The notes under the pieces were generated by a model. The model did no database searches and was not told where the DNA came from. It was given only the letters and a program-made list of their open reading frames with translations. From positions 496,001 to 560,000 of the forward strand of contig NZ_CP119989.1 in assembly GCF_029338555.1 (NCBI RefSeq): a DNA stretch of 64,000 bases, read 5' to 3'. The translations under genes were made by a program, and so were the position numbers. Shown here piece by piece: positions 41,284 through 58,467 of this stretch. Within the stretch, counting starts at the first letter, position 1. Every line of letters starts with the position of its first letter. This DNA comes from Halobaculum marinum. Its GTDB lineage: Archaea; Halobacteriota; Halobacteria; Halobacteriales; Haloferacaceae.

Positions 41284-43533
41284 TCACACCGAGATGTCCG
41301 CCTGCCGGAGCAGTTGCGCGTTGACCGCGACGACGACCGTGCTCGCCGACATCAACACCGCGCCGACCGCGGGCGACAGCAGGAACCCGACCGGGGCGAG
41401 CAGTCCCGCCGCGAGCGGGAGGGCGAACACGTTGTAGCCGGCCGCCCAGACGAGGTTCTCGCGCATCTTCCGGTAGCTGGCGCGACTCAAGCGGAGGAGG
41501 CTCACCACGTCGCGCGGGTCGTTGTCGACGAGGACGACGTCGGCGGCCTCGACGGCGACGTCCGTCCCCGACCCGATGGCGATGCCCACGTCCGCACGCG
41601 TCAGCGCGGGGGCGTCGTTCACGCCGTCGCCGACCATCGCGACGGTGCGACCGCCCGTCTGCAACTCGGTGATCTTCGCGTCTTTGTCGCCCGGGAGGAC
41701 TTCGGCGAAGTACGTGTCGATGCCGAGGTCGGCCGCGACCGCGCGGGCGACGTCCTCGGAGTCACCGGTCAACATGGCCACCTCGACGCCCATCGCGTGG
41801 AGCGCGTCGACGGCCGCGCGACTCTCCTCGCGGACCACGTCGGCGAGGGCGACCGCCCCGACGGTCGCCCCGTCGTGGACGAGGTAGACCACGCCCTGCC
41901 CACGGGACCCCGCCTCGTCGGCGAAGGTCGCGAGCGCCGCGGTCGGGTCGACGTCGAGGTGTCGCAGGAGGTTCGGCCCGCCCACGTACACCGACTCCCC
42001 GGTCGCTCCAGCGGCCGACTCGGTGCCGCCGTCCGTGACGGGAGTCGCGTCGGTGTCGACGGTCGCACGGACACCGCGCCCTTCGAGCGCCTCGAAGCCC
42101 CGCGCGTCGGGGACGGTGAGCGCCCGCTCCCGCGCCGCCCCGCGGATGGCCTCGGCGATCATGTGCTCGGAGTCGCCCTCGACGGCCGCCATCACGGAGA
42201 GGACGTCCGCCTCGCTCCACTCGGCGGTCGTCTCGACGCCGACGACGCCCTGTTCGCCCTTCGTCAACGTCCCCGTCTTGTCGAAGACGACCGTGTCGAG
42301 GGTGCGCGCCTCCTCCATCGCGACGCGGTCGCGGATGAGGATGCCGTTGCGCGCCGCCAGCGACGTGTTGATCGCCACGACGAGCGGGACGGCCAGTCCG
42401 AGCGCGTGGGGGCACGCGATGACCAGCACCGTGACGACCCGCTCGACGACCGGGAGGCCGAACCCCTCGGCGGCCGTCCAGGCGACTGCCGTGATCGCCG
42501 CGACGCCGAGTGCCGCGTAGAACAGCCAGCCGGCGGCCCGATCCGCCAGCAGTTGCGTGCGCGACTTGCTCCGCTGTGCGTCCTCGACGAGGCGGACGAT
42601 GCCCGAGAGCGTCGTCTCCTCGCCCGTCGCGGTCACCCGAACCCGGAGACTGCCGCTCCGGTTCGTCGTCCCGCCGATCACCTCGTCGCCGGCGACTTTG
42701 TCCACCGGCTTCGACTCGCCGGTGATCATCGCCTCGTCGACCGCCGACTCGCCCGACTCGACGACGCCGTCGGCGGGGACGTTCGCGCCCGGCCGAACGA
42801 GGACGAGGTCGCCCGTCGAGAGGTCGTCGACGGGGACCTCCTCGGTGTCGCCAGACTCGCCGACGCGCTCGGCGGTGGCGGGCATGAGTTCGGCGAGTTG
42901 GTCGAGCGCGCCGGAGGCGCGGCGGACGCTGCGCATCTCGACCCAGTGGCCGAGCAGGAAGATGACGATCAGCGTGACGAGTTCCCAGAAGAACGGTTCG
43001 CCCACCGCGAAGACGACGGCGGCGACGCTGTAGCCGAACGCGACGGTGATCGCCAACGAGATGAGCAGCATCATCCCCGGTTCCCGGTTGCGCGCCTCGA
43101 CGGCGCCCATCCGGAGGAACGGCACGCCGCCGTAGGCGAACACGACGAATCCGAGGACGGGAGCGACGAACTCGCTGCCGGGGAACGTAACCGCCGAGAA
43201 GCCGAGCCACTCCTGCAGCGTCGCGCTGTAGTAGAGGACGGGGAGCGCGAGCGGCAGGCAGACGAGGAACCGCCGTCTGAACATCGCCTCGTGGCCCGAG
43301 TGGTCGACCATCGCGCCGTGGTCGTGTCCGCTACTCGCTCCACGCTTCCCGTGGTCGTCGTGGTCGACGTGGCCAGCGTGGTCCTCGCCGGCGTCGTGGC
43401 TGGTGGGACCGTCGGCAGTCACCGCCTCGCGTTCGGCCTCGTGTTCGTAGCAGGCGCAGACCCGACACCCCGGGCACGCTCGGTCGGTCGGTGCGTCGTC
43501 GTGCCGACGCGCCGAGCCGTGGTGGTCGGTCAC
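41284..43533 (-). CDS. copB: Copper-translocating P-type ATPase, CopB type
   Basis: The 749-residue pump has a His-rich, Cys-containing N-terminus ([13 protein letters not shown], then many His-Asp/Gly pairs), as in CopB rather than CopA. It has about eight transmembrane helices. The actuator motif TGES, the membrane metal site CPH (VIACPHALG), phosphorylation motif DKTGT and hinge [10 protein letters not shown] are present. CPH marks the P1B-3 group that exports Cu(II) or Cu(I). The nucleotide-domain motif reads SEHMIAEAI, so Pro of the usual His-Pro pair is Met here, while His is kept. It starts four bases after the stop of a SHOCT protein gene and is cotranscribed with it. Confidence 0.92.
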
Positions 43534-43537
43534 CCGC

Positions 43538-43891
43538 TCACTCCGAACGGCTGAGCCGTTCTCGCCGGCGGTCGAACTCTTCGTCGGAGAGGTCGCCGCG
43601 GGCGTACGCGGCGCGTAGTTCCTCGATGGCGGGGTCCGACGACTCGTCGGCGTTTCGTCCGAGAGTCGTGTAGACGACGTAGCCGCCGCCGACGAGGAGC
43701 ACGAGCGGGACGAGCCACATCCCGAGCCACAGCCACGACCCGGTGGCGCCCCACATCCCGGTGCCGCCCATCTGGCCCCAGCCCCACAGCCCCATCATCG
43801 GCATCATCATCGTCATCCCGAGCAGGGGAAGGAGGACGATGACGGCGAGTACGATCACGAGCGGTCGAGTGAGTGTGTCTGTTTGGGTCAT
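43538..43891 (-). CDS. SHOCT-domain membrane protein linked to copB
   Basis: The 117-residue protein has two transmembrane helices (about 8-28 and 52-72), between them a Met/Gly/Trp-rich loop ([22 protein letters not shown]), and a C-terminal SHOCT motif ([26 protein letters not shown]). The Met cluster could bind Cu(I). It is the first gene of the copB operon. The close paralogue at 16141-16497 follows a DUF302 gene. I chose the ATG at 43891; an upstream TTG/GTG extension of 13 residues is possible. Confidence 0.85.
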
Positions 43892-44223
43892 GGTGTTGGT
43901 GGGTGAGGTCGTCGACCGGGCCGACCGCACGGCGAACGGGCAGCCGTGTCGGCGGTCGCGAACACCACCGTCGACAGAGAAGTACGGGGGCAGAGACTTT
44001 GGTAGTTTCTCTTACGTTTCGAAGTCGCTCGAACGACGAGCGAACCGATAGCCGTGACGGCAGCGCCGATCGGCTCGACGGCCAGACGGCGTCGACGCGC
44101 CCCGATCTGCTTTGGATCCGTGTGTTTCGAACCGGGATCCATTCGAATCGAAGGGGCTGGGCCGATCACACCACGATCGGAACAAGGGAAACCGTGGTAG
44201 TCGATCGTCCCGTTCGATGACGT
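43892..44223. promoter_or_regulatory. Divergent control region between the copB operon and the YHS permease
   Basis: The 332 bases hold no credible gene. A perfect inverted repeat TCGCTCG-AACGA-CGAGCGA lies at 44025-44043, next to the most AT-rich part (43996-44022). A second element repeats the order GGATCC then TTCGAA twice: GGATCC at 44114-44119 and 44135-44140, TTCGAA at 44126-44131 and 44142-44147. Both could be operators for a metal-responsive regulator serving both directions. The regulator is not encoded next to them. Confidence 0.45.
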
Positions 44224-45618
44224 ATGCAGGCCGCGTTCGTCGACGGCGTCCTCGAAGCCCTGCGCATCGGGATCGGCTTCCTGTGGACGGCGAGTTGGGC
44301 GATCGTCTTGGGGTTGGTGGTCACCAGCTACGTCCAGGTGTACGTCTCGAAAGAGCGCATGGCGGCGGTCCTCGGCACCGACGACGCCGACGCGCTCGTG
44401 AAGGCCACGCTGTTCGGCGCCGCGAGCAGCGGGTGTAGCTTCGGCGCCGTCGCGATCGGCAAGGGACTGTTCAAGCAGGGCGCACACGCCGTGAACGTCC
44501 TCGCGTTCATGTTCGCCTCGACGAACCTCATCGTCGAACTCGGGCTGATGATCTGGATCCTCCTGGGGTGGGAGTTCCTGGTCGCAGAACTGCTGGGCGG
44601 CGTCGTCCTCATCGCGGTGATGGCCGGCATCGTGCGCCTGACGCTGCCGGAGACGCTCTTCGACAGCGTCCGCGAGGAACTCGCCGCCCGCGACCGCGAG
44701 TCGGGCGTCACGGAGGACCCGACCTGCGGCCACGAGGGTCGCCCCGAGTACACCGTCACGACCGACGGCGGCGAGACGCTGCAGTTCTGTTCGGCGGGGT
44801 GTCTGGAGACGTACCGACAGCGGGTCGCCGGCGCCGCCGACTGGCGGGAGGAACTCCTGTCGTGGGGCGGTTGGTACAAACTGGGCAACCAGTACCGCAA
44901 GGAGTGGTCGATGATCTGGACAGACGTGGTCGCGGGGTTTCTGATCGCGGGCTTCGTCATCGTGTTCGTCCCGCAGTGGGTGTGGAACGCGCTGTTCCTC
45001 CCGGGAGACGGGCTGGCCGTGACCGTCGAGAACGCCGTGATGGGCGTGACCATCGCCGTGGTCAGCTTCGTCGGCAGCATGGGGAACGTCCCGTTCGCGG
45101 TGGCGCTGTGGGGCGGCGGGATCAGCTTCGCGGGCGTCATCGCGTTCGTCTACGCCGACCTCATCACCGTCCCCGTCCTCAACGTCTACCGGAAGTACTA
45201 CGGCTGGCGTGTGATGGCGTACATCCTCGTCGTGTTCTTCGTCACGATGGCGTTCACGGGCGTCCTCATGGAGCTGCTGTTCGACGCGCTGGGGATCGTG
45301 CCCGACCTCGCCGGCGGTCGGACGGCCTCCGAGCAGACGTTCTTCGAACTCGACTACACGTTCGCCCTGAACCTCGTCGCGTTTGCGCTGTCCGCGTTCC
45401 TCCTCTCCGTGTACCGGCGTGGACTGGGCGCCCCCGGCGAGCACCGCGACCCGGTCTGTGGGATGCGTACGGACGAGGACGGCCCGAGCGCGACGTACGA
45501 CGGCGAGACGTATCGGTTCTGCTCCGCCCGCTGCGAGCGGACGTTCCGGTCGACCCCGTCGCGGTTCGTGAGCCACCCGACTGCGGGGCCGGAGGCGGCC
45601 GGACACGACCACCACTGA
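44224..45618 (+). CDS. COG0701-type permease with two YHS/TRASH metal-binding domains
   Basis: The 464-residue protein has two membrane halves of about four or five helices each, as in permeases of the ArsP/DUF318 group. The first half contains the family motif AASSGCSFGAVAIGKGLFKQG (Cys71), the second SFVGSMGNVPFAVALWGGG. In the central cytoplasmic or external loop is a YHS/TRASH-like domain with Cys168, Cys189 and Cys193 (FCSAGCLETY). The C-terminal 50 residues form a second one (DPVCGMRTDEDG... FCSARCERTF) and a His-rich end GHDHH. Its cargo is probably a metal, metalloid or metal complex. It is divergent from the CopB operon and beside the CO dehydrogenase cluster, so copper is attractive but unproven. 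Confidence 0.85.
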   Translation: MQAAFVDGVLEALRIGIGFLWTASWAIVLGLVVTSYVQVYVSKERMAAVLGTDDADALVKATLFGAASSGCSFGAVAIGKGLFKQGAHAVNVLAFMFASTNLIVELGLMIWILLGWEFLVAELLGGVVLIAVMAGIVRLTLPETLFDSVREELAARDRESGVTEDPTCGHEGRPEYTVTTDGGETLQFCSAGCLETYRQRVAGAADWREELLSWGGWYKLGNQYRKEWSMIWTDVVAGFLIAGFVIVFVPQWVWNALFLPGDGLAVTVENAVMGVTIAVVSFVGSMGNVPFAVALWGGGISFAGVIAFVYADLITVPVLNVYRKYYGWRVMAYILVVFFVTMAFTGVLMELLFDALGIVPDLAGGRTASEQTFFELDYTFALNLVAFALSAFLLSVYRRGLGAPGEHRDPVCGMRTDEDGPSATYDGETYRFCSARCERTFRSTPSRFVSHPTAGPEAAGHDHH

Positions 45619-45672: not shown

Positions 45673-46905
45673 CTACTGCGTCGGCGCGTCCGCGTCGACG
45701 CCGTCGCCAGCACCGTCGTTGCCACCGTTCCCACCGTCGTCGCCGACGTCGACCCGCTCGTGGATCGGTCCCTCGCGCTCCTTGAGGTGGCCGGGGTCGC
45801 GGTCGTTCGACACCGCGAGCACCTCCGCGACGATGCTGTGTGCGATCTGGTACGGCGATCCGCCGCCCAGGTCCAGTCCCACGGGCGTGTACAGCGGCGC
45901 CAACTCCGACTCGGAGAACTGCCGTCCCTCGTCGGCGAACGCCTCCAGCATCTCCTCGAAGCGCTCGCGTGGGCCCATCAGCCCGACGTACGCCACGCCG
46001 GCGTCGAGCAGCGCCTCCACGACGATGCGGTCGTCGACGAAGTTGTGCGTCATCACGACCGCGTGCGTGCGGTCGTCGAGTCGGACCTCGTCCGCGAGGC
46101 GCCCGGGCGCGGTCGTCACCGTCCGGTCGGCCGCGGGGAACCGCTCGGCGAGGTCGACGGCGCCGCGGAAGCCGACGACCGTCACGCGGAAGTCGTTGTT
46201 CGCGGCGAGTTCGGTCACCGGGCCGACGTCGTGGCCCGTCCCGAACACGACGAGGTCGGTCGGCGCGGCGACGCCGTCGACGAACACCTCGACGGTCGTG
46301 CCGTCGGTGTCGAACACCAGCGTGTCACCCCGACCGCGCCCCGCGAGGTCGCCCGCGGGACCGGCCAGTCCCGCCGGCCACTCGTCCGACGCGGGGTCGC
46401 CGTCGGGCGTGCGGAGCGTCCCGTCGTCCGGGCGGTAGTACGCGCGGTCGCCGCGCACCAGCGGCCCGTCGCCGCCGTCGAGCACGGTCGCCACCGCCAC
46501 GTCGTGGCCCGTCTCGAACGCGTCGACCGCAGGACGGTACGTCTCCGTCAGCGGTTCGAGGAGCACGTCGATGATGCCGTTGCAGCCGACGCCGAGGCCC
46601 CAGACGTCCTCGTCGTCGTCCATGAGGTCGTACGTGACGACCTCCGGGGTGCCTGTCTCGCGAATGCGCTCGGCGACGCTCGCGAGGTCCTCCTCCAGGC
46701 AGCCGGCGGTGATGGCGCCGACGCCCTCGCCGTCCGCGCCGAGCAGCATCTTCGCGCCGGGGCGGCGGTAGGCGTTGCCCTCGACGCCGACGACCGTTGC
46801 GAGGACGGCCGGCGGCCCCTCGGGGTCGCCCGCGCGACCGTCGAGGTGGTCCCTGATCGACTGTACGACTTCGGTTTCGGGTACGCTCCAGGTGTGTGCT
46901 GTCAT
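45673..46905 (-). CDS. XdhC/CoxF-family protein (second copy in the CO dehydrogenase cluster)
   Basis: The 410-residue protein has an N-terminal XdhC_CoxI domain (GVEGNAYRRPGAKMLLG and GVGAITAGCLEEDLA with the conserved Cys) and a C-terminal Rossmann domain (DLVVFGTGHDVGPVTELAANNDFRVTVVG). The end is an acidic Gly/Asp tail. XdhC-type proteins bind molybdenum cofactor and help insert a sulphur or metal into molybdo-hydroxylases. It is the last gene of the cox cluster and overlaps the preceding DUF364 gene by four bases. Confidence 0.88.
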   Translation of the reverse strand: MTAHTWSVPETEVVQSIRDHLDGRAGDPEGPPAVLATVVGVEGNAYRRPGAKMLLGADGEGVGAITAGCLEEDLASVAERIRETGTPEVVTYDLMDDDEDVWGLGVGCNGIIDVLLEPLTETYRPAVDAFETGHDVAVATVLDGGDGPLVRGDRAYYRPDDGTLRTPDGDPASDEWPAGLAGPAGDLAGRGRGDTLVFDTDGTTVEVFVDGVAAPTDLVVFGTGHDVGPVTELAANNDFRVTVVGFRGAVDLAERFPAADRTVTTAPGRLADEVRLDDRTHAVVMTHNFVDDRIVVEALLDAGVAYVGLMGPRERFEEMLEAFADEGRQFSESELAPLYTPVGLDLGGGSPYQIAHSIVAEVLAVSNDRDPGHLKEREGPIHERVDVGDDGGNGGNDGAGDGVDADAPTQ

Positions 46906-47879
46906 GGATCGGGTGTGTCGGTCGTGTCTGCGACTGCGCCGCCGTCGCGGTCGTCGCGGTCGATGTGGTCGTCGTGGTCGTCGTGGTCGTCGCCGGCCCG
47001 GTGTCCGGCGGGCGTGAGATCGATGCCGGCGGTGGGCGCCGCCGCGACGTATCCCTTGCGCACGCCCGCGTCGTGGAGGTCCGTCCCGCAGGCGCCCGCC
47101 TCGACGGCCGCGCGGACTCGGACCGGGTCGTCGACGGCGGCGCCCGCGACCACGTCGGCGCCGGCGGCGAACAGCGGGTCGGGGAGGAGCGAGGCGCTCG
47201 CGCCGACCACGACGACCGTCGCCTCGGCCGGGGCCGCCGCGAGCGCCTCTCCCAGACCGCCGTAGACGAGCGTCGATCCGGTGACGAACACCACGTCGGC
47301 GCCGGCCATCGCGACGGCGGTGTCCGCGGGCGGGACCACCGAGACGGTCACGCCGGGGGGCGTCTCGACCTCGGCGACGTCGACGGGGTCGCGCTCGACG
47401 ACGCGGACGTCCACGGCGTCGAACTTCCGGAACGCCGGGCGGAACAGCCCCACCGTCGCGATGGTCTCGACGTCGGCGGACAGGCGCTCCATCGGGTCGC
47501 CGTCGCGCCAGTCGACGAACGGCGCCGACAGCGCGTTCAGCGTCGCCACGCCCACCGCGCGGGCGACCGCCGCGTCGCCGTCGGTGGGTGCCTCCCCGAG
47601 TGCCCACGCAACCAGCGTCTCGATGTCGACGCCCTCGACGGCCGGGGCGGGACCGGGCGGGCGGTGTGCGAGTCCGGCGCGGGGCACGTCGGCGCCGTTC
47701 CGGTTGGTCTCGTTCCGGTCGGCCTCGTTCCAGTCGGTACCGTTTCGCTCGTCGCCATCCCCGCGGAGTTCGACGAACACGGCGGCGTCGCCGACGGTGA
47801 CGTGATCGACCGCGACTCCGTCGAACGCGCCACGCTCGCGGAGCGCGTCGACCACGGCCCGCACGACGGCGTCGCTCAC
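46902..47879 (-). CDS. DUF364-type putative metal-chelating protein
   Basis: The 325-residue protein has the order of the DUF4213/DUF364 family: an N-terminal DUF4213-like part (VTVGDAAVFVEL and VAWALGEAPTDGDAAVARAVGVATLNAL) and a C-terminal part with TVGLFRPAFRKF, DVVFVTGSTLVYGGLGEAL and VVVVGASASLLPDPLFAAGADVV. One structure of the family suggested metal chelation; no reaction is established. An insert of Asn/Asp/Arg-rich residues splits the N-terminal part, and a His/Asp-rich stretch (DDHDDHDDHIDRDD) near the C-terminus could bind metal. The GTG start at 47879 overlaps the coxE stop (GTGA). Its place in a CO dehydrogenase maturation operon is notable. Confidence 0.8.
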   Translation of the reverse strand: MSDAVVRAVVDALRERGAFDGVAVDHVTVGDAAVFVELRGDGDERNGTDWNEADRNETNRNGADVPRAGLAHRPPGPAPAVEGVDIETLVAWALGEAPTDGDAAVARAVGVATLNALSAPFVDWRDGDPMERLSADVETIATVGLFRPAFRKFDAVDVRVVERDPVDVAEVETPPGVTVSVVPPADTAVAMAGADVVFVTGSTLVYGGLGEALAAAPAEATVVVVGASASLLPDPLFAAGADVVAGAAVDDPVRVRAAVEAGACGTDLHDAGVRKGYVAAAPTAGIDLTPAGHRAGDDHDDHDDHIDRDDRDGGAVADTTDTPDP

Positions 47880-49369
47880 GACGGACCACCGCCGTCGGCG
47901 GGTGTCGAGGCGTCGGTACCGGCGTCGCTGTCGGCGTCCGGGATGGCGTCGTCGTCTCCTGCCGCCGCGTGCCGCCGCGGGTCGTACTGGTAGCCGACCG
48001 GTCCTCGCAGGCCGCGTCGTTCGAGTTGGCGGGCGGCAGCCGCGAGGTCCGCGGGGCCGGCGAAGCCGAACAGCGCGTCGACGTACGGTTCGCAGGCGGC
48101 CATCCCGCGCGAGCGGGGTTCGAACTCGGGCGAGACGGCGAGCGGGTTGAGCCAGATCACGGCGCTCGCGCGGTCGGCGAGCCAGGTGATCCCGCGGTCG
48201 AGCAGGTCGGGGTCGCCCACGTCGAGGCCGTCGCTGACGACGACGACCACCGTCCGCCGGTCGACGGCGTCGGGGTGCTCGCGCCGGAGCGTGTCGAACG
48301 CGGCGCCGATCTGCGTGCCGCCGCCCCACCGGATCTCTGCGGCGCGCAAGGCGGCCGCCGGGTCGCCGTCGGCGCGCGCAAACGCCGCCGTCGCGTCCGC
48401 GAGGTCGGTGTCGAACAGGAACACCCGCGCATCTCGCGCGGTCGTCGACAGCGTCTCCGCGACCGACAACAGCGCGTTCCGGTCGGCGGTGTCCAGCACC
48501 GACCCGCTCACGTCGACCAGCAGGCAACAGCGCAGTTCGCTCGGCGTCGGCGCCGCCGTCGGCAACTCCATCGGGACGCCACCGGTGGCGAGACTCGACC
48601 GGAGCGCCCGCCGCGCGTCGACGCGTGCGCCCGTCGGCGACCGCCGCCGCCGACGACCCGGGAGCGTGGCGAGCGCGTCGACGAACCGCCGCACTGCGGC
48701 CCGCTCGTCGGGTGTGGTCGGCGCGACGGTCGCCTCGACCGTCTCCCCGCCCCCGATCGCGCTGGCCCGCCGAGCGTCGTGCTCGCCGGACTCCGCGGCT
48801 CGCTCGCCCGAGGCGTACCGGCGGCCCGTCGGGATCCGGATCTCGGGGTCGCCCGTCGACTCGTCCTCGTCGTCGAACGCGGGTGGTTCGGCGCCCGCCA
48901 GCGTGTCTTCTGCCGACTCGGCGTCGTCGTTCGCGGGGGCGAGCGCGTCCGGTGTCGTCGGGTCGTCGCCGCCGGCGCCGTCGTCGACGTCGGACTCCGG
49001 CCCGCCGCCGGCGGTCGCAATCGCCGACAGCCCCGAGCGCAGTCGGTGCCAGAACGAGGGGAACGCGTCGTCGAAGGCGTCGCCGCCGTCCGCGTCGGAC
49101 AGCAGCGCCGCGCGGAGGGCGTCCGCCGCCCGGTCGCGGTCGTCGAGACCGACGACTGCCAGCGCCTGCGCGGCCGCGAGCGTCCCGCTCGGGGGCACGT
49201 CGACGCCGTCGCGTCGGAGCACGGCGGCGAGCCTGACCACCTCGATCAGGACGTGGCGCCGTGCCGCTCGGAAGTCGGGGACGCCGTCGCCACCGGCACC
49301 CGCCGCGAGCGGGTTCGCGCCGCTGCCGTTCGCGACTCGGTCGGCGTCGGCGCCGTCCCGGTCGGTCAT
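47876..49369 (-). CDS. coxE: CoxE-like von Willebrand factor A protein
   Basis: The 497-residue protein ends in a VWA domain with a complete metal site: DVSGSV, the Thr of GGGTQIG and Asp in VVSDGLDVGD. The N-terminal 280 residues contain helices (FRAARRHVLIEVVRLAAVLRRDGVDV) and acidic linkers. CoxE works with the MoxR-like ATPase CoxD in building the Mo-Cu site of CO dehydrogenase; in Oligotropha CoxE and CoxF are linked to copper insertion. One base separates it from coxD. The ATG at 49369 fits the CoxE N-terminus better than the longer frame. Confidence 0.88.
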   Translation of the reverse strand: MTDRDGADADRVANGSGANPLAAGAGGDGVPDFRAARRHVLIEVVRLAAVLRRDGVDVPPSGTLAAAQALAVVGLDDRDRAADALRAALLSDADGGDAFDDAFPSFWHRLRSGLSAIATAGGGPESDVDDGAGGDDPTTPDALAPANDDAESAEDTLAGAEPPAFDDEDESTGDPEIRIPTGRRYASGERAAESGEHDARRASAIGGGETVEATVAPTTPDERAAVRRFVDALATLPGRRRRRSPTGARVDARRALRSSLATGGVPMELPTAAPTPSELRCCLLVDVSGSVLDTADRNALLSVAETLSTTARDARVFLFDTDLADATAAFARADGDPAAALRAAEIRWGGGTQIGAAFDTLRREHPDAVDRRTVVVVVSDGLDVGDPDLLDRGITWLADRASAVIWLNPLAVSPEFEPRSRGMAACEPYVDALFGFAGPADLAAAARQLERRGLRGPVGYQYDPRRHAAAGDDDAIPDADSDAGTDASTPADGGGPS

Positions 49370-49370
49370 C

Positions 49371-50384
49371 TCACTCCGCCGGCCGCTCGGCGGCGACCGG
49401 GTCGGGGTCCGCGTCGGCCGCGGCCGCCCGCAGCGCCTCAAGCAGGTCCGTGTCGACCCGGTCGACGTCCTCGACCTCCTTGAGCAGGCAGCCGATGGTG
49501 CGTTCGATCTCGGCGGGCGTCAGCGAGTCGCCGTCGTCGTCGCCGTCGGGGTCGTGCCGGAGGTGTGCGACCGCCCGCGCCCAGTCGAGCGTCTCGGCGA
49601 CGCCCGGGCGCTTGAGGAACGCCTCCTCGCGGAGGCGGGCGACGACTGCACACACTTCGGCGGCGACGGCGGCGTCCAACTCGGGCACCTTCCGGCGAAC
49701 GATCTCGTACTCCGTCTGGAACGACGGCGGTTGGACGTTGAGGTACAGACACCGGCGCTTCAGCGCGTCGCTCAGCCCCCGCGTCCGGTTCGACGTGAGG
49801 ATCACGACGGGCGAGCGGTCGGCGGAGACGGTGCCCAACTCGGGGATCGACACCTGAAAGTCCGACAGCAGTTCCAGGAGGAACGCCTCGAACTCCTCGT
49901 CGGCGCGATCGATCTCGTCGATGAGCAACACCGGCGGCGTCTCCCCCTCGGTGCGGAGCGCGCGCAACAGGGGGCGCTCCAGCAGGTACTCCTCGGCGAA
50001 CACCGAGTCGTCGCGTGCGGGCGACGAGCCGCCGGTGTCGGCGTCGTCGACGGCGGCGTTCGCGCCACCGACGCGCCCTTCCTCCGCCTGCACCGCGAGG
50101 AGTTGCTTGGTGTAGTTCCACTCGTACAGGGCGTTCTCGGCGGTGAGGCCCTCGTAACACTGCAGGCGGATCAACTCGGTGTCGAACGCCGACGCGAGCA
50201 CCTTCCCGAGTTCGGTCTTGCCACTGCCGGGCGGCCCCTCGATCAACAGCGGGCGTTCGAGGCGCAACGCGAGGTGGACCGTCGTCACCGTGCGGTCGTC
50301 GGCGACGTAGTCGGCGGCCTCGAACCGCTCGCGGAGCTCCGCGTCGGTGACGCGCCCGAACGGGTCGTCGGCGTCCCGGGTCAT
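49371..50384 (-). CDS. coxD: CoxD-like MoxR-type AAA+ ATPase
   Basis: The 337-residue ATPase has Walker A GPPGSGKTE (near residue 52), Walker B VLLIDEIDRAD, sensor 1 LTSNRTR and arginine-finger region LKRRCLYL. It matches the CoxD group of MoxR ATPases, membrane-associated chaperones that help sulphurate the molybdenum centre. An insert of Gly/Ala/Asp residues (about 103-125) separates two helices. It overlaps the CoxF-YHS gene (ATGA) and is followed by coxE, the usual D-E order. Confidence 0.92.
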   Translation of the reverse strand: MTRDADDPFGRVTDAELRERFEAADYVADDRTVTTVHLALRLERPLLIEGPPGSGKTELGKVLASAFDTELIRLQCYEGLTAENALYEWNYTKQLLAVQAEEGRVGGANAAVDDADTGGSSPARDDSVFAEEYLLERPLLRALRTEGETPPVLLIDEIDRADEEFEAFLLELLSDFQVSIPELGTVSADRSPVVILTSNRTRGLSDALKRRCLYLNVQPPSFQTEYEIVRRKVPELDAAVAAEVCAVVARLREEAFLKRPGVAETLDWARAVAHLRHDPDGDDDGDSLTPAEIERTIGCLLKEVEDVDRVDTDLLEALRAAAADADPDPVAAERPAE

Positions 50385-51532
50385 GTCGGCGCGTCGTCCT
50401 CCGCGAGGTACGACGCCGGGTCCGCGCGGAACGACTCCGCACAGCCGCCACAACAGAAGTAGTACGTCTCCCCGTCGTGGGCGACGCTGTGGGCGGTGTC
50501 GCTCGGGTCGACGGTCATTCCGCAGACCGGGTCGATAGCCTCGGCGGGTACCTCCTCGTCGCCGCCCGGGTCTGTGTCTCCGTCCGCGCTCGCCGTGTCG
50601 GCGGCGTCGGTACCGTGATCCTCCGTCGCGTCTGCAGCCGTCGGCTCCTCGCTCGTACTCGTCGCAGCCGCGACTCGCGGTGCGTCGCCGCGACCGCGGC
50701 GGTGGTCGACGACCTCGGCGACGATGCTCACCGCGATTTCGGCGGGCGTGTACGCCGCCACGTCGACGCCGGCGGGGTTCGTCACCCGCGCGGCCACGTC
50801 CTCGGGGTCGCGGTCGATCAGCGCCGCCGCGGTGTCGACCACCTCGTCGGCGCGCTTGCTGCTCGCGATCAGCCCGACGTACCGCGCGTCGGCGAGCACG
50901 CCGGCGGCGACGCCGCTGGCGTCGAACGACCCCATCGTCGCGACGACGACCAGCGGGTCGTGCCCGAGGGCGTTCGCGAGCGCTTCGGGGTCTGTGTCCG
51001 TCAGGACGCGCGTCCCCTCGGGGAGTCCGGTCTCGTCGCCCGTCGGGTCGACGACCACGACGTCGACGGCGAGTTCCGTCGCGAGTCGTGCGAGCGACCG
51101 CGCGACCGGCGACCCGCCGCAGATCACGAGTTCTGGCCGGGGGTTCACCGGCTCGACGAACAACTCCAGCACGCCCTCGCTGTGGCACGTCATCGGGAAC
51201 GCCTCCAGCCCTGGACGAGCGACCGTCTCGGGGTCGGGCGCGATGCCGATCAGCCGGGGCTGGCCGTCCTCGATGGCCGCCAGTGCCTCCGTGATGGCGG
51301 TGGTCTGCGCGCAGGCGGCGCCGCCGATCCACCCGCGGAGGTCACCCTCGCGGGTGACGACCGCGCGGTCGCCGACGTTCGCGGACACCGGCGGCTCGCG
51401 GCGGACGACCGTCACGCGGGCGTACGGCTCGCCGGCGCTCGCGAGTTCGCGCTCGACGTCGCTCACGTCGCCGTCGGCGTCCGCGGGGCGCTCGGGTGTC
51501 GTACTCGGGTCCTCCTCGGTGTCGCGTGTCAT
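50381..51532 (-). CDS. XdhC/CoxF-type protein fused to a C-terminal YHS metal-binding domain
   Basis: The 383-residue protein has an XdhC_CoxI-like domain (RVTVVRREPPVSANVGDRAVV, GWIGGAACAQ with a conserved Cys) and a Rossmann XdhC_C domain (LVICGGSPVARSLARLA). A long Thr/Asp/Ala linker leads to a YHS domain at about 335-378 with DPVCGMTVDPSD and YYFCCGGCAESF. Cys in CGM and CCGGC can bind a soft metal such as Cu(I). CoxF-like proteins act in Mo-Cu site assembly, so the fused domain may carry copper to CO dehydrogenase (inference). Order coxL-F(YHS)-D-E is consistent. It is separated from coxL by 160 bases with a strong hairpin. Confidence 0.88.
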   Translation of the reverse strand: MTRDTEEDPSTTPERPADADGDVSDVERELASAGEPYARVTVVRREPPVSANVGDRAVVTREGDLRGWIGGAACAQTTAITEALAAIEDGQPRLIGIAPDPETVARPGLEAFPMTCHSEGVLELFVEPVNPRPELVICGGSPVARSLARLATELAVDVVVVDPTGDETGLPEGTRVLTDTDPEALANALGHDPLVVVATMGSFDASGVAAGVLADARYVGLIASSKRADEVVDTAAALIDRDPEDVAARVTNPAGVDVAAYTPAEIAVSIVAEVVDHRRGRGDAPRVAAATSTSEEPTAADATEDHGTDAADTASADGDTDPGGDEEVPAEAIDPVCGMTVDPSDTAHSVAHDGETYYFCCGGCAESFRADPASYLAEDDAPT

Positions 51533-51691: not shown

Positions 51692-54202
51692 TCAGTCGTC
51701 CGCGGGCTCACCCTCGCCGGAGTCGACGTCGGTGAACTCGAACGTGACGCTGTCTGCCGGGTCACGCTCCAGGCCGACCTCGGCGAGCGCGGCCCAGACG
51801 CGGTCGGGCGTCATCGGCATCTCCACGTGCGTCGTGCCGGCGTGGGCCATCGCGTCGACGACGGCGTTGACGATGGCCGGCGGCGAGCCGACGGTCGGCG
51901 ACTCGCCCACCCCCTTCGCACCGATCGGGTGGTGGGGCGACGGCGTCACCGTGTACCCCGTCTCGAAGTTGGGAATCTCCATCGACGTGGGCAGCAGGTA
52001 GTTCATGAAGTCGCCGCCGGTGCAGTTGCCGTTCTCGTCGTAGGTGACGTGCTCCATCATCGCCGTCCCGATGCCCTGCGCCAGGCCGCCGTGGATCTGG
52101 CCCTCGATGACCATCGGGTTGATGCGGTTGCCGCAGTCGTCGACGGCGACGAACTTCTCGAAGTCGACGGCGCCGGTCTCGCGGTCGACCTCGACGACGA
52201 CGATGTACGAGCCGAACGGGTACGTCATCTCCGGCGGGTCGTAGTAGTCGACGGCCTCGAGGCCGGGCTCCTCGCCCGCCGGGTGGTTCATGTAGGCGCC
52301 GGCGGCGATCTCGGTGATCGTGATCGAGCGGTCGGGCGCGCCGGCGACGTGGAAGTGGCCGGACTCGCGGTCCCACTCGATGTCCTCCTCGGCGGCCTCC
52401 AACTCGTTGGCCGCGATAGACTTGGCCTTGTCACGCACCTTGCGCGCGGCGACGGCGGTCGCGGCGCCCGCGACGGGCGTCGACCGCGAGCCGTACGTCC
52501 CCAGCCCGTAGGGGTCGGTGTCGGTGTCGCCGTGCTCGACGCTGATGTTCTCGACGTCCATGCCGAGTTCTTCCGCGACGATCTGCGCGAAGGTGGTCTC
52601 GTGACCCTGCCCTTGCGTCTGGACGCCGACCCGGAGGACGGCGTTGCCAGTCGGGTTCACCCGGATGTCCGCGGAGTCGAACATCTCGATGCCCGCGATG
52701 TCGCAGGTCTTGCCCGGCCCGGCGCCGACGACCTCCGTGAACGAGGAGATGCCGATGCCGATCAGCTTGTCGGCGTCCTCCTCGATGCGGCGCTGTTGCT
52801 CCTCGCGGTAGTGGTCGTAGTCGGCCATCTCCATGGCCAGATCCAGCGCCTTCTCGTAGTCGCCGGAGTCGTAGTTCCAGCCCGTCGGACTCTCGTACGG
52901 GAACTGCTCCGGTTGGATGAAGTTCTTGCGCCGGATCTCTGCCGGGTCCATGTCGAGTTCGTGGGCGAGCACCTTCACCATCCGCTCGATGAGGTACACC
53001 GCCTCCGTCACCCGGAACGAACAGCGATACGCGACGCCGCCGGGGGCGGTGTTGGTGAACGCCGCCGTCAGCGACCCGTACGCCGCCTCGATGTCGTACG
53101 ACCCGGTGAAGATGTTGAAGAAGCCCGCGGGGAACTTCGACGGCTGGGCGACGGCGTTGTACGCGCCGTGGTTCGCCAGCACGTCCGTCCGCACGGCTCT
53201 GATCTTCCCGTCTTTCGTCGCGGCCAACTCGCCCGTCATGTCGTAGTCGCGGGCGAAGCCGGTCGTCTGGATGTTCTCCGAGCGCTCCTCCATCCACTTC
53301 ACGGGCCGTTCGAGCACGACCGACGCCGCCGCGGCGACGACGTAGCCCGGGTAGATGGGCACCTTGTTGCCGAACCCGCCGCCGATGTCGGGGCTGACGA
53401 TCCGGACCTTGTGCTCGGGAATGCCCGACACCATCGAGAACAGCGTCCGGTGGGCGTGGGGCGCCTGCGAGGTGAGGTGGACGGTGATCTTCTCTTTGCC
53501 AGGGTCCCAGTCGGCCACACACCCGCACGTCTCGATGGGCGCGGGGTGGAGCCGCTGGTACTCCATCTGCTCTTTGACGGTGACCTCCGACTCCTCGAAG
53601 ATGGCGTCGGTCGCCTCCTTGTCGCCGACGTCCCAGTCGAAGATGTGGTTGTCCTCCTGGTCCTCCAACTCGTCGCGGATGAGCGGCGCGTCGGCCTCCA
53701 GCGCGTCCTTCGCGGTGACGACCGGGTCGAGCACCTCGTAGTCGACGGCGACCTTCTCGGCGCCGTCTTTCGCGATGTAGCGGTCCTCGGCGATGACCGC
53801 CGCGACCTCCTGCGACTGGAACTTCACCTTGTCGTTGACGAGCACGTCCTGCGTGTCGTCCATGAGGGTCGGCATCGTCGCGAGGTCGTGGGCCGCCAGG
53901 TCCTCGGCGGTGAGGACGGCGACGACGCCGTCGACCTGCATCGCCCGCTCGGTGTCGATGCTGTTGATGCGGGCGTGGGCGTGGGGACTGCGAACGATCT
54001 CACAGTGGAGCATCTTCGGCTTCTTGATGTCGTCCACGTAGTTGCCGCGCCCGGTGATGAAACGCTTGTCCTCCTTGCGCCGCACGGACTCGCCCATCCC
54101 GCCGCGACCGTGGCCGCAGTGCTTCTCGGGGTCCGGCCCGCCGTCCTCGTCGTGTTGGTACTCGGTGTTTGCCTGGGGGACGTTGTCGGAGTCGCTGCTC
54201 AT
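51692..54202 (-). CDS. coxL: Form I aerobic CO dehydrogenase, large (Mo-Cu) subunit CoxL
   Basis: The 836-residue molybdo-hydroxylase oxidises CO with water to CO2, giving electrons to the FeS and flavin subunits. Residues 391-397 read AYRCSFR, the loop that defines form I CoxL; Cys394 would hold the copper of the Mo-S-Cu centre (Cys388 in Oligotropha). Form II homologues have AYRGAGR. The cofactor-binding motifs GGGFGNK (near 275), [12 protein letters not shown] and [13 protein letters not shown] with Glu767, the general base, are present. The N-terminus has about 35 extra acidic residues with a CGHGRGGMG motif. The ATG overlaps the coxS stop. The enzyme shows no Tat signal and should sit at the inner membrane face. 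Confidence 0.95.
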
Positions 54203-54858
54203 CGCTCGTCACCTCGGTGCGTCGCGTCGGTGGACGGACCGCCGCAGCAGTTCTCCACGCCGCAGGAGAACTCCCCGTCGTCGTCGACGTCGTAGCCGTC
54301 GAACGAGGCCGGGCCGTCGGCAGACGAGACGCCGCCGTCGGCCGCCACGGCCTCGGCGTCGTCGCGCTCGCCGTCCGCGAGTTTCTCGGCGGCGTACTCG
54401 ATCGACTTCACGATGTTCTGGTAGCCGGTACACCGACAGAGGTTGCCGCTGATCGCCTCGCGGATCTCAGCCTCGCTCGGGTCCGGGTTCTCCTCCAGCA
54501 GCGCCTTGCCCGACATGATCATCCCGGGCGTGCAGTAGCCACACTGGAGGCCGTGTTCCTCGTGGAACCCCTCTTGGAGCGGGTGGAGGTCGTCCACCGC
54601 GTCTGGGTGGTCCTCCATCCCCTCGACCGTCTCGACCTCGCTGCCGTCGGCCTGGACCGCGAACATGAGACACGACTTCAGCGGCTCGCCGTCGACGAGC
54701 ACCGTGCAGGCGCCGCAGTTGCCCGTGTCACAGCCGATGTGGGTACCCGTCAGGTCGAGGTCCTCGCGGATCGCGTGGACCAGCAGCCGTCGCGGTTCGA
54801 CCTCGATCGTCTCCTCGGTACCGTTGACTGTCAGGGTGATCTCGCGTGTCTCACTCAT
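54199..54858 (-). CDS. coxS: CO dehydrogenase small iron-sulphur subunit CoxS
   Basis: The 219-residue protein has two [2Fe-2S] clusters. The proximal plant-type cluster uses Cys43, Cys48, Cys51 and Cys63 ([16 protein letters not shown]). The other uses Cys106, Cys109, Cys141 and Cys143 ([18 protein letters not shown]). They carry electrons from the Mo-Cu centre to the FAD of CoxM. Beyond residue 165, where usual CoxS proteins end, is a tail of about 50 residues with three more cysteines (Cys199, Cys204, Cys205 in [11 protein letters not shown]). Start and end overlap the neighbouring genes (ATGA). Confidence 0.95.
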
Positions 54859-55742
54859 GGTTTCACCGTCCGCCTGACGACGCCCGCCCGTTCGGCCGCG
54901 TCGCCCAGCGCGCGCTGGGTGAGGACGTCGACCATCCGCTCTTTGTACGCCGCGTCGCCGTGTTCGTCGGACTCGGGGTGCGACTGCTCGGCGGCCAACT
55001 CGCCCGCCTCCTCGAACAGGTCGGGGCTCGGTCGCTCGCCCTCGAGGTGGTCCTCGGCGTCGCTCGCGCGGGCGTTGGTGATGTCGACGGCGGTCATGCC
55101 GATGCCCGCCGACTCGATGACGCCGTCGTCGTCGAACTGCAGGCGGACGCCGACGCCGGCCATCGCGTAGTCGCCGGTCTTGCGTTTCAGCTTGTGGTAG
55201 GCGCTCCCTTCGCGAGCGCTCGGGACGGGGACGCGCACCTCCGTGATCAACTCGTCCTCGTCGAGCGCCGTGTCGTACGGGAGCAGGAAGAACTCGTCCG
55301 CGGGGATCACCCGTTCGCCGTCGGGACCCTGCGCGACGACCTCGCCGTCGTGGGCGATGAGGAGGCTCCCCCAGTCACCCTTCGGGTCCGCCTGCGCGAC
55401 GGAGCCGACGACGGTGCCGCGGTTGCGGATCTGCGGGTCTGCCACCAGCGGCGCCGCGTCGGCGAAACTGCCGTACTTCTCGGCGATCAGGTCGGAGTGC
55501 TCCACGTCCGCGTGGCGCGCCAGCGCGCCGATCTTCAGGGAGCCGTCCTCCTCGTGGAGGTAGTCCAACTCCTCGATGCCGTTGATGTCGACGACCACGT
55601 CCGGGTTCGCCAGTCGGAACCGGAGCATCGGGACGAGGCTCTGCCCACCCGACAGCACCGTCGGCCCGTCGAGGCTCTCGAGGAGACTGACGGCCTCGCC
55701 GACGCTCGTCGGCTGGTGGTGCTCGAACGGCGCGGACTTCAT
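54855..55742 (-). CDS. coxM: CO dehydrogenase FAD subunit CoxM
   Basis: The 295-residue protein has the FAD-binding motifs of the molybdopterin dehydrogenase FAD subunit: [14 protein letters not shown] and [19 protein letters not shown]. The C-terminal CO dehydrogenase flavoprotein domain follows from about 180. It passes electrons from CoxS to the quinone pool or another membrane acceptor. The order M-S-L is that of known cox operons. The ATG at 55742 overlaps the coxG stop. The frame runs on upstream inside coxG, but the FAD domain starts here ([14 protein letters not shown]). Confidence 0.94.
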
Positions 55743-56335
55743 CCGAACATCCCCCGGATGCGGTCGGTGACGCTCGAGTCCGTCTCCTCGACGTCGGTCA
55801 TCTGCTTCTCGATGTCCTTGAAGAAGTTGCCCACAATCTTGTCGGCGACGGGGTTGATCACCCGCCCGCCCAACTGCGCGATGCGCCCGGAGATGTCGGC
55901 GTCGGTCCACCACTCGATGCGGGAGCCGTCGCCCTCCTCCTGGGGGTGGATGTGCATCCCGGACTCCATGCTGAAGCTGCTGCCGCTGGCGGAGCCAGAC
56001 CCGGTCGCGGTCATGATGAACTCTTCCTCGTCGCGCTCGTCGATGGTCACCGTCGTCTCGAACTTCGGCTTCACGCTGCCGACGCCGACCTGCATCAGCG
56101 CCGCGTACTTCTGCCCCTCTTTGAACGCGCGCGCCGCGACGTCCTCGGGGTCGGCCTCCGGGAGCGTCGCGACGTCCTCCTCGGGCTCGTAGGTGTCCCA
56201 GCCGAACTCGTCGTCCATCGGGGTGATGTACTTGCACCCCTTCAGCGAGTTCCGGACCGCGATCGGGTCCGAGAGCACCACCCACGCCTTGTCCGGTGGT
56301 ACCCCGTCGAGTTCGAACTCGCCCTCGAAGTTCAT
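55739..56335 (-). CDS. coxG: CoxG-like SRPBCC protein
   Basis: The 198-residue protein opens like CoxG (MNFEGEFELDGVPPDKAWVVLSDP) and has the START/SRPBCC helix-grip fold. The conserved DADISGRIAQLGGRVINPVADKIVGNFF segment lies at about 140-175. CoxG recruits CO dehydrogenase to the membrane in carboxydotrophs, and recent work showed it carries menaquinone to the enzyme in mycobacteria. It is the first gene of the cluster, with a strong Shine-Dalgarno GGAGG five bases before the ATG. An insert at about 45-65 (EPEEDVATLPEADPED) is acidic. Confidence 0.91.
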   Translation of the reverse strand: MNFEGEFELDGVPPDKAWVVLSDPIAVRNSLKGCKYITPMDDEFGWDTYEPEEDVATLPEADPEDVAARAFKEGQKYAALMQVGVGSVKPKFETTVTIDERDEEEFIMTATGSGSASGSSFSMESGMHIHPQEEGDGSRIEWWTDADISGRIAQLGGRVINPVADKIVGNFFKDIEKQMTDVEETDSSVTDRIRGMFG

Positions 56336-56518: not shown

Positions 56519-57811
56519 ATGACCGACACACCCACCACCGACGACGACGCCCGCGACGCAGCCAACCACGACGACGCCGACCACGACGCAAGCGGCAGCC
56601 ACGCCCACCCCGACCCGATCGACTGGCGCGACGGCGCCGCCGAGGCCGCGGCGTTGCGCGAGCACCTCCTCGACAGGGTCGCGACCGAGGCGGTCGGCCT
56701 CGACCGGATCGCCGGTCGGCCGCTCGCCGAAGCGGTCGACGCGCCGACGGCCATCCCGGCTCAGAGCCACGCGACGATGGACGGCTTCGCGCTCGACGCG
56801 TCCGACGACTACCCGCTGGAGGTGGTCGACGCCGACGTGTTCCCGGAGGACGACGCCCCGGACATCGAAGCCGGACAGGCGGTCCGCATCGCCACCGGCG
56901 CGCCGGTGCCGGCGTCGGCGAACGCCGTGCTCAAACGCGAGGAGGCGACCGTCGAGGACGGCCTGCTCACGGGGCCGTCGCTCGACCCGGGGACGTACGT
57001 GTACGAGCGCGGGAGCAACGTCGCCGAGGGTGAGCGTCTGTTCGACGCCGGCGAGCGTCTCGCCCCGCGCGACGCGATCCTCCTGGGTGATCTGGGGATC
57101 GACGAGGTCCAGGTTCGCGAGCGGCTCTCCGTGGGCTTGCTCGCCACCGGCACCGAGATTCACGAGGGCCGCCACACGGACCTCGACTCGCCGATGCTGG
57201 CGAACCTGCTCTCGGCGTGGGGGCACGACCCGGTGTACGAGGGCACGGTGCCCGACGACTACGACCGCGTCGAGTCGCGGATCGCCGCGCTCGCCGACAA
57301 GCACGATGTCGTCGTCACGACTGGCGGCACCAGCGTCGGCGACAAAGACCACGTCGTCCGCGCGCTCAGGAACTTGGGCGACGTGCTGTTCCACCGGGTC
57401 GCGCTCCGTCCGGGCAAACCCATCGCCGTCGCGGACCTGCCCGCCCACGATGCGGTCGCGGTCGCGGTTCCCGGCAAACCGGTCGGCGCGCACGCCGTGA
57501 CGACGCTCGTCGCTCGCCCGCTGTTCACCGGCGAGACTGCGCTCCCGACCGTCCCGGCGACGCTCGCAGTCGACGTGGGCATCGGCGTCCCCGGCTTCGA
57601 CTACGCCGTCCCGGTGACGCTCGACGACGGCACCGCGATGCCGCTGGGCCACGTCGACTCCGACCTGGCGGTGTACGAGGAGACGTTCGACCCGAGCGTG
57701 CTCTCGTCGAGCACCCGGGCGACTCGCGCGGACGGCTTCGTGCTCACCGAGACGGCGTTGGCGGCGGGCGACGAGGTCCGCGTCGTCCCCTACCCGGCGG
57801 TCGAGCGATGA
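56519..57811 (+). CDS. moeA: Molybdopterin molybdenumtransferase MoeA
   Basis: The 430-residue enzyme inserts molybdate into adenylated molybdopterin. MoeA_N (with the SHATMDGFAL motif), MoCF-binding domain (LLATGTEIHEG, VVTTGGTSVGDKDH) and C-terminal beta domain are in normal order. An N-terminal His/Asp-rich stretch of about 35 residues is extra. It is divergent from the cox operon and cotranscribed with the mocA-like gene, so it is probably the MoeA paralogue used for CO dehydrogenase. Confidence 0.94.
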   Translation: MTDTPTTDDDARDAANHDDADHDASGSHAHPDPIDWRDGAAEAAALREHLLDRVATEAVGLDRIAGRPLAEAVDAPTAIPAQSHATMDGFALDASDDYPLEVVDADVFPEDDAPDIEAGQAVRIATGAPVPASANAVLKREEATVEDGLLTGPSLDPGTYVYERGSNVAEGERLFDAGERLAPRDAILLGDLGIDEVQVRERLSVGLLATGTEIHEGRHTDLDSPMLANLLSAWGHDPVYEGTVPDDYDRVESRIAALADKHDVVVTTGGTSVGDKDHVVRALRNLGDVLFHRVALRPGKPIAVADLPAHDAVAVAVPGKPVGAHAVTTLVARPLFTGETALPTVPATLAVDVGIGVPGFDYAVPVTLDDGTAMPLGHVDSDLAVYEETFDPSVLSSSTRATRADGFVLTETALAAGDEVRVVPYPAVER

Positions 57812-58467
57812 GCGGCGGCGACCTCCCGATACGCGAGCCACCAACAGCCGCCGGCGAGCGGACCACCCTCGACGACGCTCGCGTCGCGGGCGTCGTGCTC
57901 GCGGCGGGGACGAGCTCCCGCTACGGCGACCGGAACAAACTCCTCGAATCGGTCGGTGGCGACGACTCCGACGGCGACCCCATCGTGCGGACGGCGACGC
58001 GGACGCTCCTCGCTGCGGGGCTGGACCCGGTGGTCGTCGTCGTCGGGCACGAGGCCGCCCGTGTCGCCGCGGCGGTCGCGGACCTCCCGGTCGAGACGGT
58101 CGAGAACGAGGCGTTCGCGGCGGGACAGTCCACCTCCGTCGCCGCCGGCGTCGAGGCGGTGGCGGCCCACGACCCCCCGGTCGACGCGGCGGTCGTGGCG
58201 CTCGGTGACATGCCGTTCGTGGCGCCCGACACCGTCCGCGCGCTCGTCGCCGCCTACGCCGCGGGTGTCGGCGACGTGCTCGCGCCGGCGTACGAGGGGC
58301 GGCGCGGCAACCCCGTGCTGTTCGACCGTCGCTTCTTCTCGGCGCTCGCCGACGTCGACGGCGACGTAGGCGGGCGTGCGATTCTCCTCGGCAGCGACGA
58401 CGCCGCGCTCGTCGCGGTCGACGACCCCGGGGTCCGGCGCGACGTCGACGAACCGGGCGACGTGTAG
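57808..58467 (+). CDS. mocA: MocA-like molybdenum cofactor cytidylyltransferase
   Basis: The 219-residue NTP-transferase has the nucleotide-binding motif VVLAAGTSSRYGDRNKLL near residue 29, GHEAA and the metal motif ALGDMPFV with the conserved Asp. The end has GRRGNPVLFDRRFFSAL. It resembles MocA, which makes molybdopterin cytosine dinucleotide, the form of the cofactor used by CO dehydrogenase and xanthine-oxidase-family enzymes. Its ATG overlaps the moeA stop (ATGA). A MobA-like GTP preference cannot be excluded, but context favours CTP. Confidence 0.88.
   Translation: MSGGDLPIREPPTAAGERTTLDDARVAGVVLAAGTSSRYGDRNKLLESVGGDDSDGDPIVRTATRTLLAAGLDPVVVVVGHEAARVAAAVADLPVETVENEAFAAGQSTSVAAGVEAVAAHDPPVDAAVVALGDMPFVAPDTVRALVAAYAAGVGDVLAPAYEGRRGNPVLFDRRFFSALADVDGDVGGRAILLGSDDAALVAVDDPGVRRDVDEPGDV

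Follow-up and report, generated by a model that had tools for sequence, protein, structure and literature searches.

The stretch of DNA analyzed here, hereafter "the window", comprises 64,000 nucleotides of the genome of the haloarchaeon Halobaculum marinum and carries a cox gene cluster whose order, read on the minus strand, is CoxG-CoxM-CoxS-CoxL-CoxF(YHS)-CoxD-CoxE-DUF364-second XdhC, the CoxF and CoxD genes overlapping by 4 bp. The presence of the AYRCSFR motif in the CoxL loop identifies the predicted product as a form I CO dehydrogenase, which is, to our knowledge, the only known Mo-Cu enzyme and constitutes a major sink of atmospheric CO. The initial annotation of the window had placed at 50381-51532, between coxL and coxD-coxE, a CoxF-type maturation protein fused to a Cys-rich YHS domain and had proposed that this protein is the copper chaperone of the enzyme. 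The coordinates turned out to be exact, the location between form I coxL and coxD-coxE was confirmed and the strand, which had not been given, is the minus strand. The genes of the cluster and its divergent neighbors are the following:

45673-46905, minus strand: second XdhC-family protein, of CoxI/XdhC type, without YHS
46902-47879, minus strand: DUF364 protein (Pfam PF04016, "putative heavy-metal chelation"), kept in haloarchaeal clusters
47876-49369, minus strand: CoxE, VWA protein (Pfam VWA_CoxE)
49371-50384, minus strand: CoxD, MoxR-type AAA+ ATPase
50381-51532, minus strand: CoxF-type XdhC protein with YHS domain, 383 amino acids, grouping with Oligotropha CoxF in the tree
51692-54202, minus strand: CoxL, form I (AYRCSFR), predicted from its loop motif to be a Mo-Cu CO dehydrogenase subunit
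54199-54858, minus strand: CoxS, 2Fe-2S subunit with a C-terminal stretch (10 protein letters not shown)
54855-55742, minus strand: CoxM, FAD subunit, by sequence and position
55739-56335, minus strand: CoxG (Pfam COXG)
56519-57811, plus strand: MoeA homologue, divergent neighbor kept in relatives
57808-58467, plus strand: nucleotidyltransferase (MocA/MobA-like), kept in relatives and named by analogy with an annotated Natronorubrum gene

The entire arrangement, divergent MoeA and nucleotidyltransferase genes included, recurs in the majority of 22 further clusters from haloarchaea, and the gene order of Natronorubrum bangense matches that of the window down to these two divergent genes. In the haloarchaeal clusters L252, L259 and L267, coxE and the second XdhC gene were not found beside coxF, and the same applies to coxD in two of them. 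CCGG or His-rich stretches occur in the CoxS tails of haloarchaea (in the window, within 54199-54858) as well as in the CoxF linkers of L004, L029, L032, L044, L058 and L082.

Other neighboring genes had been enlisted by the initial annotation as parts of a dedicated copper route, and it is this portion of its argument that mostly fails. The claimed CopB-SHOCT operon and YHS permease do exist, since the region 41284-45618 encodes a CopB-like P-type ATPase (CPH type) whose N-terminus is His-rich, a SHOCT membrane protein and an ArsP permease with two YHS-like domains, and the only two YHS genes of the genome are less than 5 kb apart; however, genes for CopB, SHOCT or the ArsP-type YHS permease adjoin none of the 22 related cox clusters, and the CopB-SHOCT operon and the permease were accordingly rejected as components of the system. 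Similarly, the DUF364 protein is indeed present and conserved with the cluster, but 19 relatives lack its His/Asp stretch, which, being confined to the window protein, was discarded as a conserved copper store. The literature connects the DUF364 family with rare metals generally (PMC2954201), and this steady member of the haloarchaeal cox clusters possibly plays a role in Mo/pterin or metal handling.

Domain structure of the CoxF-YHS protein

The fusion of a CoxF-type protein with a YHS domain is real; all three Pfam domains of the protein score above their cut-offs. From the N- to the C-terminus the protein consists of:

51248-51442, minus strand: XdhC_CoxI domain, residues 31-95, including invariant C74 (45.2 bits, cut-off 24.3)
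50711-51130, minus strand: XdhC_C Rossmann domain, residues 135-274 (80.5 bits, cut-off 29.7)
50543-50680, minus strand: linker, about residues 285-330, predicted disordered (pLDDT mostly <60)
50405-50536, minus strand: YHS/TRASH domain, residues 333-376, with D334, C337, C360 and C364 (49.5 bits, cut-off 30.3)

The protein is assigned to CoxF by the presence of both XdhC_CoxI and XdhC_C and by its position in the tree, in which it falls on the side of Oligotropha CoxF and apart from CoxI and the other XdhC proteins with a support of 92, and of 93 in a second tree. Immediately before XdhC_C lies the motif M114-T-C116-H-S-E-G, which aligns with M107CPSHGTM of Oligotropha CoxF, and the YHS domain displays the three-Cys signature C-x(about 20)-C-x3-C. 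In the AlphaFold2 model, two domains predicted with confidence are separated by a disordered linker of ~45 residues, in which segments 287-298 and 303-324 have pLDDT <50. When the modeled YHS domain was used for a structure search, the YHS domains of diiron hydroxylases and ribosomal protein eL24 topped the list, with E-values and Z-scores that are weak, the query being 59 residues long.

Distribution of the fusion and its linkage to form I coxL

Since a search baited with the YHS domain would have been biased, 80 form I coxL loci were retrieved by CoxL alignment alone, blind to YHS, and CoxF was then sought in them. The loci belong to Chloroflexota, Bacteroidota, Acidobacteriota, Gemmatimonadota, Armatimonadota, Ignavibacteriota, SAR324, Neomarinimicrobiota, Bacillota, Thermoplasmata and Thaumarchaeota. 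A CoxF-YHS protein was found in 61 of them and a complete CoxF lacking YHS in one (L061); of the remainder, one holds a misassigned XdhC of CGG type, three have a CoxF truncated at the end of a contig and 14 show no CoxF in the retrieved DNA. Thus, YHS is present in 61 of the 62 complete CoxF-type genes at form I loci, whereas it was found on none of the about 40 other XdhC paralogues of the same 80 loci. A search of plasmids showed that those of Thermomicrobium roseum, Paraburkholderia, Deinococcus and Natronorubrum also encode the fusion, which on these plasmids adjoins form I coxL only. The plasmid matches and the form I loci from many phyla lead to rejection of the idea that the fusion is confined to haloarchaea; CoxF has the YHS tail in the majority of the bacterial and archaeal lineages sampled, and the recurrence of this architecture next to form I coxL in numerous phyla is far beyond chance. 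Three CoxF proteins carry a tandem pair of YHS domains (L071:18791-19954, L087:12347-13579 and L092:12362-13579). A strict AYRCSFR pattern would miss some form I CoxL loop variants, namely AYACSFR (L166, L321 and L322) and AHRCSFR (L119).

The same linkage emerges when entire genomes are considered. In the order to which the window belongs, the 24 genomes having CoxF, out of 293, are exactly the 24 having form I CoxL. In the phylum of Niastella (247 genomes) the same six genomes possess both CoxF and form I CoxL, and five of these six have form II CoxL as well. As to the phylum of Thermogemmatispora (271 genomes), form I CoxL is present in 57 genomes, which include all 50 having a CoxF that scores at least 200 bits, the threshold separating CoxF from other XdhC proteins having been chosen after the score gap (214 vs 177 bits) had been seen. 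The association yields a Fisher p of about 2e-47, a value that, the genomes being related, serves only to rank the effect. Two apparent cases of form I without CoxF in this phylum do have CoxF-YHS, scoring below the threshold, and YHS is found at the end of all 49 complete CoxF retrieved.

In the phylum of genome G302, nearly all CoxF have YHS. About a dozen genomes of Gemmatimonadota type have CoxF-YHS but no coxL within 9 kb. Form I CoxL was found in 16 of the 27 genomes searched (in two as fragments), often ~10 kb from CoxF; the other 11, in which it was not found, are mostly accounted for by broken contigs, leaving two or three genomes unaccounted for. Taken as a whole, the linkage of CoxF to form I CoxL is near-universal in the lineages sampled, and CoxF can serve, genome by genome, as a practical marker of form I CoxL. 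The co-occurrence with form I that the initial annotation had suggested checking holds in the sets of 293, 247 and 271 genomes, and in the sets examined the fusion was not found on XdhC proteins of xanthine dehydrogenase or form II loci; the central proposal, a soft-metal-type domain dedicated to form I, is supported and acquires a generality that extends well beyond the window.

Candidate metal ligands, the HMA replacement and probable losses of the tail

Five cysteines are invariant across 62 CoxF-YHS proteins: C74 and C116 in the XdhC body and C337, C360 and C364 in the YHS domain; the second Cys of the FCC triplet is not. The pattern C-x21-23-C-x3-C occurs in 128 of 129 distinct fused proteins, and the 22 + 3 spacing of the CoxF YHS is that found in the YHS domain of Mycobacterium phlei adenylyl cyclase (C181, C204, C208). 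In Deinococcus AJ005 (L042:9010-10071) the YHS domain is retained while its first Cys is gone (SPVDGE). In the sampled sets, C74 and C116 do not vary, whether YHS is present or absent. The C116 position coincides with the site in Oligotropha CoxF, M107CPSHGTM, that has been proposed to bind copper (PMC4240915).

Five CoxF proteins (L269-L273), which could have been taken for tail-less, proved to have at the YHS position a C-terminal HMA domain with the sequence MSCAHC; the three tested score 40.8-45.5 bits against a Pfam cut-off of 24.8. The HMA-bearing proteins form one clade nested among the YHS-bearing CoxF, and their genomes contain form I CoxL. HMA is the fold of the copper chaperones CopZ and Atx1. 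Two unrelated folds thus occupy one and the same place and have soft-metal binding in common, an argument for a copper ligand stronger than that offered by YHS alone. This replacement, which could not be seen from the window, adds support to the initial proposal and represents the best sequence evidence for copper.

The tail is sometimes absent altogether. CoxF without YHS was found in eight alphaproteobacteria (Oligotropha included), in one actinobacterium (Nonomuraea), in the haloarchaeon G058 and in L061. The eight alphaproteobacterial proteins constitute one supported clade nested in the CoxF tree, and those of Nonomuraea, L061 and haloarchaeon G058 occupy separate positions; the parsimonious reading is that an ancestral YHS may have been lost several times, a reading that depends on the root and on the thin sampling of Actinomycetota (one record) and Pseudomonadota. 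The last residues of L061 CoxF (L061:8281-9216), GHCCHD, may represent a minimal soft-metal tail. An additional case is L235:8993-9835 of genome G426, a protein sister to a YHS-bearing CoxF that has itself lost YHS and both body cysteines and in whose genome no form I CoxL was detected; this is what would be expected, from one case, if cysteines and tail serve copper.

Proposed copper delivery, its alternatives and known systems

The enzyme made by coxF mutants of Oligotropha is copper-free while Mo and S are present, and it was in this organism that CoxF was proposed, in 2014, to be the copper supplier (PMC4240915); the accompanying model was built on short motifs taken to indicate a suspected phytase and a copper site (PMC4240915). 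A review had noted that CoxF falls into one group with XdhC proteins encoded in further CO dehydrogenase operons (PMC2997495). Neither XdhC together with a YHS domain nor coxF together with YHS was found in the open-access literature.

From the linkage to form I, the invariant cysteines and the HMA replacement, we infer that the YHS domain would bind and deliver Cu(I), and we assign a probability of roughly three in four to the reading that the window protein is CoxF, which takes part in the maturation of form I (Mo-Cu) CO dehydrogenase, endowed with a built-in Cu(I)-delivery module, i.e., the tethered YHS. The XdhC body would, on the analogy of XdhC and of the Oligotropha CoxF, dock on an apo-CO dehydrogenase whose Mo already bears sulfur, while the YHS domain, on its flexible tether of ~45 residues, would hold Cu(I) through C337, C360 and C364, and perhaps D334. 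The YHS (or the HMA) could then carry Cu(I) to the active site, either directly or via C116/C74 of the XdhC body, and copper would finally be placed between the Mo-bound sulfide and the AYRCSFR cysteine of CoxL. What counts against a copper module is that it is dispensable, Oligotropha making a Cu-replete enzyme without YHS, that the YHS of Deinococcus AJ005 lacks the first Cys and that YHS/TRASH domains also bind soft metals other than copper.

The fact that Oligotropha CoxF works without YHS lends some weight to a different function, in which YHS acts as a copper sensor, so that Cu switches on CoxF or a CoxD-CoxE-CoxF complex, restricting maturation to times when copper is available, and the copper itself passes via C116/C74 or another chaperone. 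The invariance of C74 and C116 irrespective of YHS points in the same direction, and the one studied enzyme having a C-terminal YHS, the adenylyl cyclase of M. phlei, is Cu-regulated through this domain, which responds to none of the other metals tried (PMC4626032). However, for the HMA found at the YHS position, carrying copper is a better established function than allosteric switching, and both the long disordered linker and the tandem YHS of L071, L087 and L092 fit a carrier better than a gate, so that sensing, the best surviving of the rivals, appears improbable. Even fewer chances are left to YHS as a structural or docking Zn domain, akin to a zinc ribbon, that anchors CoxF to CO dehydrogenase, to CoxE or to the membrane; although the nearest solved folds are the Zn-containing TRASH-type ribosomal eL24 and the diiron-hydroxylase YHS, the latter not known for copper binding, the domain is strictly limited to the sole copper-containing branch of the enzyme family and is replaced by an unrelated fold with which it shares soft-metal (Cu) binding. 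Finally, that the cysteines carry a persulfide for Mo sulfuration, as might be imagined for a Cys-rich domain attached to a member of a family that guards sulfurated Moco (PMC2997495) and works with cysteine desulfurases, is very hard to reconcile with the enzyme of the Oligotropha coxF mutant, which keeps its cyanolysable sulfur (1.40 vs 1.53-1.93) and has almost no copper, with the lack of YHS in XdhC proteins of other sulfurated enzymes and with HMA domains not being sulfur carriers. All three roles are less likely than copper delivery.

Extending the copper-delivery reading to the whole family, a step taken with somewhat less assurance, CoxF would probably be ancestrally a two-part copper insertase, consisting of an XdhC body for the sulfurated apo-CO dehydrogenase and a tethered carrier (YHS or, in one lineage, HMA), a CCS-like prokaryotic chaperone serving a bimetallic Mo-Cu site, of which Oligotropha would be the derived exception, its carrier having been lost. 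The only CoxF studied so far, that of Oligotropha, on which the 2014 model rests, is devoid of a domain that most of its relatives carry. With a concrete candidate copper-binding module and its ligands at hand, the source of the enzyme's copper becomes directly testable, suitable organisms being Thermomicrobium, Thermogemmatispora, Natronorubrum and other haloarchaea, with the YHS-less and HMA-bearing CoxF as natural controls.

Several known systems lend themselves to comparison. CoxF of Afipia (Oligotropha) carboxidovorans resembles the window protein in its XdhC clade, its clustering with form I coxL, coxD and coxE and its aligned C-x-S-x-G site; unlike the latter, it has 280 amino acids and neither YHS nor HMA, belonging to a nested lineage that appears to have lost the domain. 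The XdhC proteins of xanthine dehydrogenase and CoxI share the XdhC_CoxI + XdhC_C fold with CoxF but have a CGG-type motif in place of C-x-S-x-G and, in the sets examined, never carry YHS. In M. phlei adenylyl cyclase, YHS is likewise C-terminal on an otherwise unrelated protein, with identical 22/3 Cys spacing and an Asp three residues before the first Cys, but it regulates cAMP synthesis, is attached through an 8-residue linker, as opposed to ~45 residues, and has no delivery role. The TRASH- and HMA-type copper chaperones (CopM/CopZ) of the cop systems of archaea and bacteria are small cytoplasmic Cu-carrying domains, and both types occur as CoxF tails; yet CopM and CopZ exist on their own and serve export ATPases and regulators, whereas the CoxF tail is fused to the maturation factor of a single enzyme. 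A parallel is offered by CCS of the eukaryotic Cu,Zn superoxide dismutase, in which Cu reaches a single enzyme through an Atx1-like domain joined to a domain that docks on the target; the two systems would be alike in principle, although YHS is unrelated in sequence to Atx1 and the docking domain of CoxF is XdhC.
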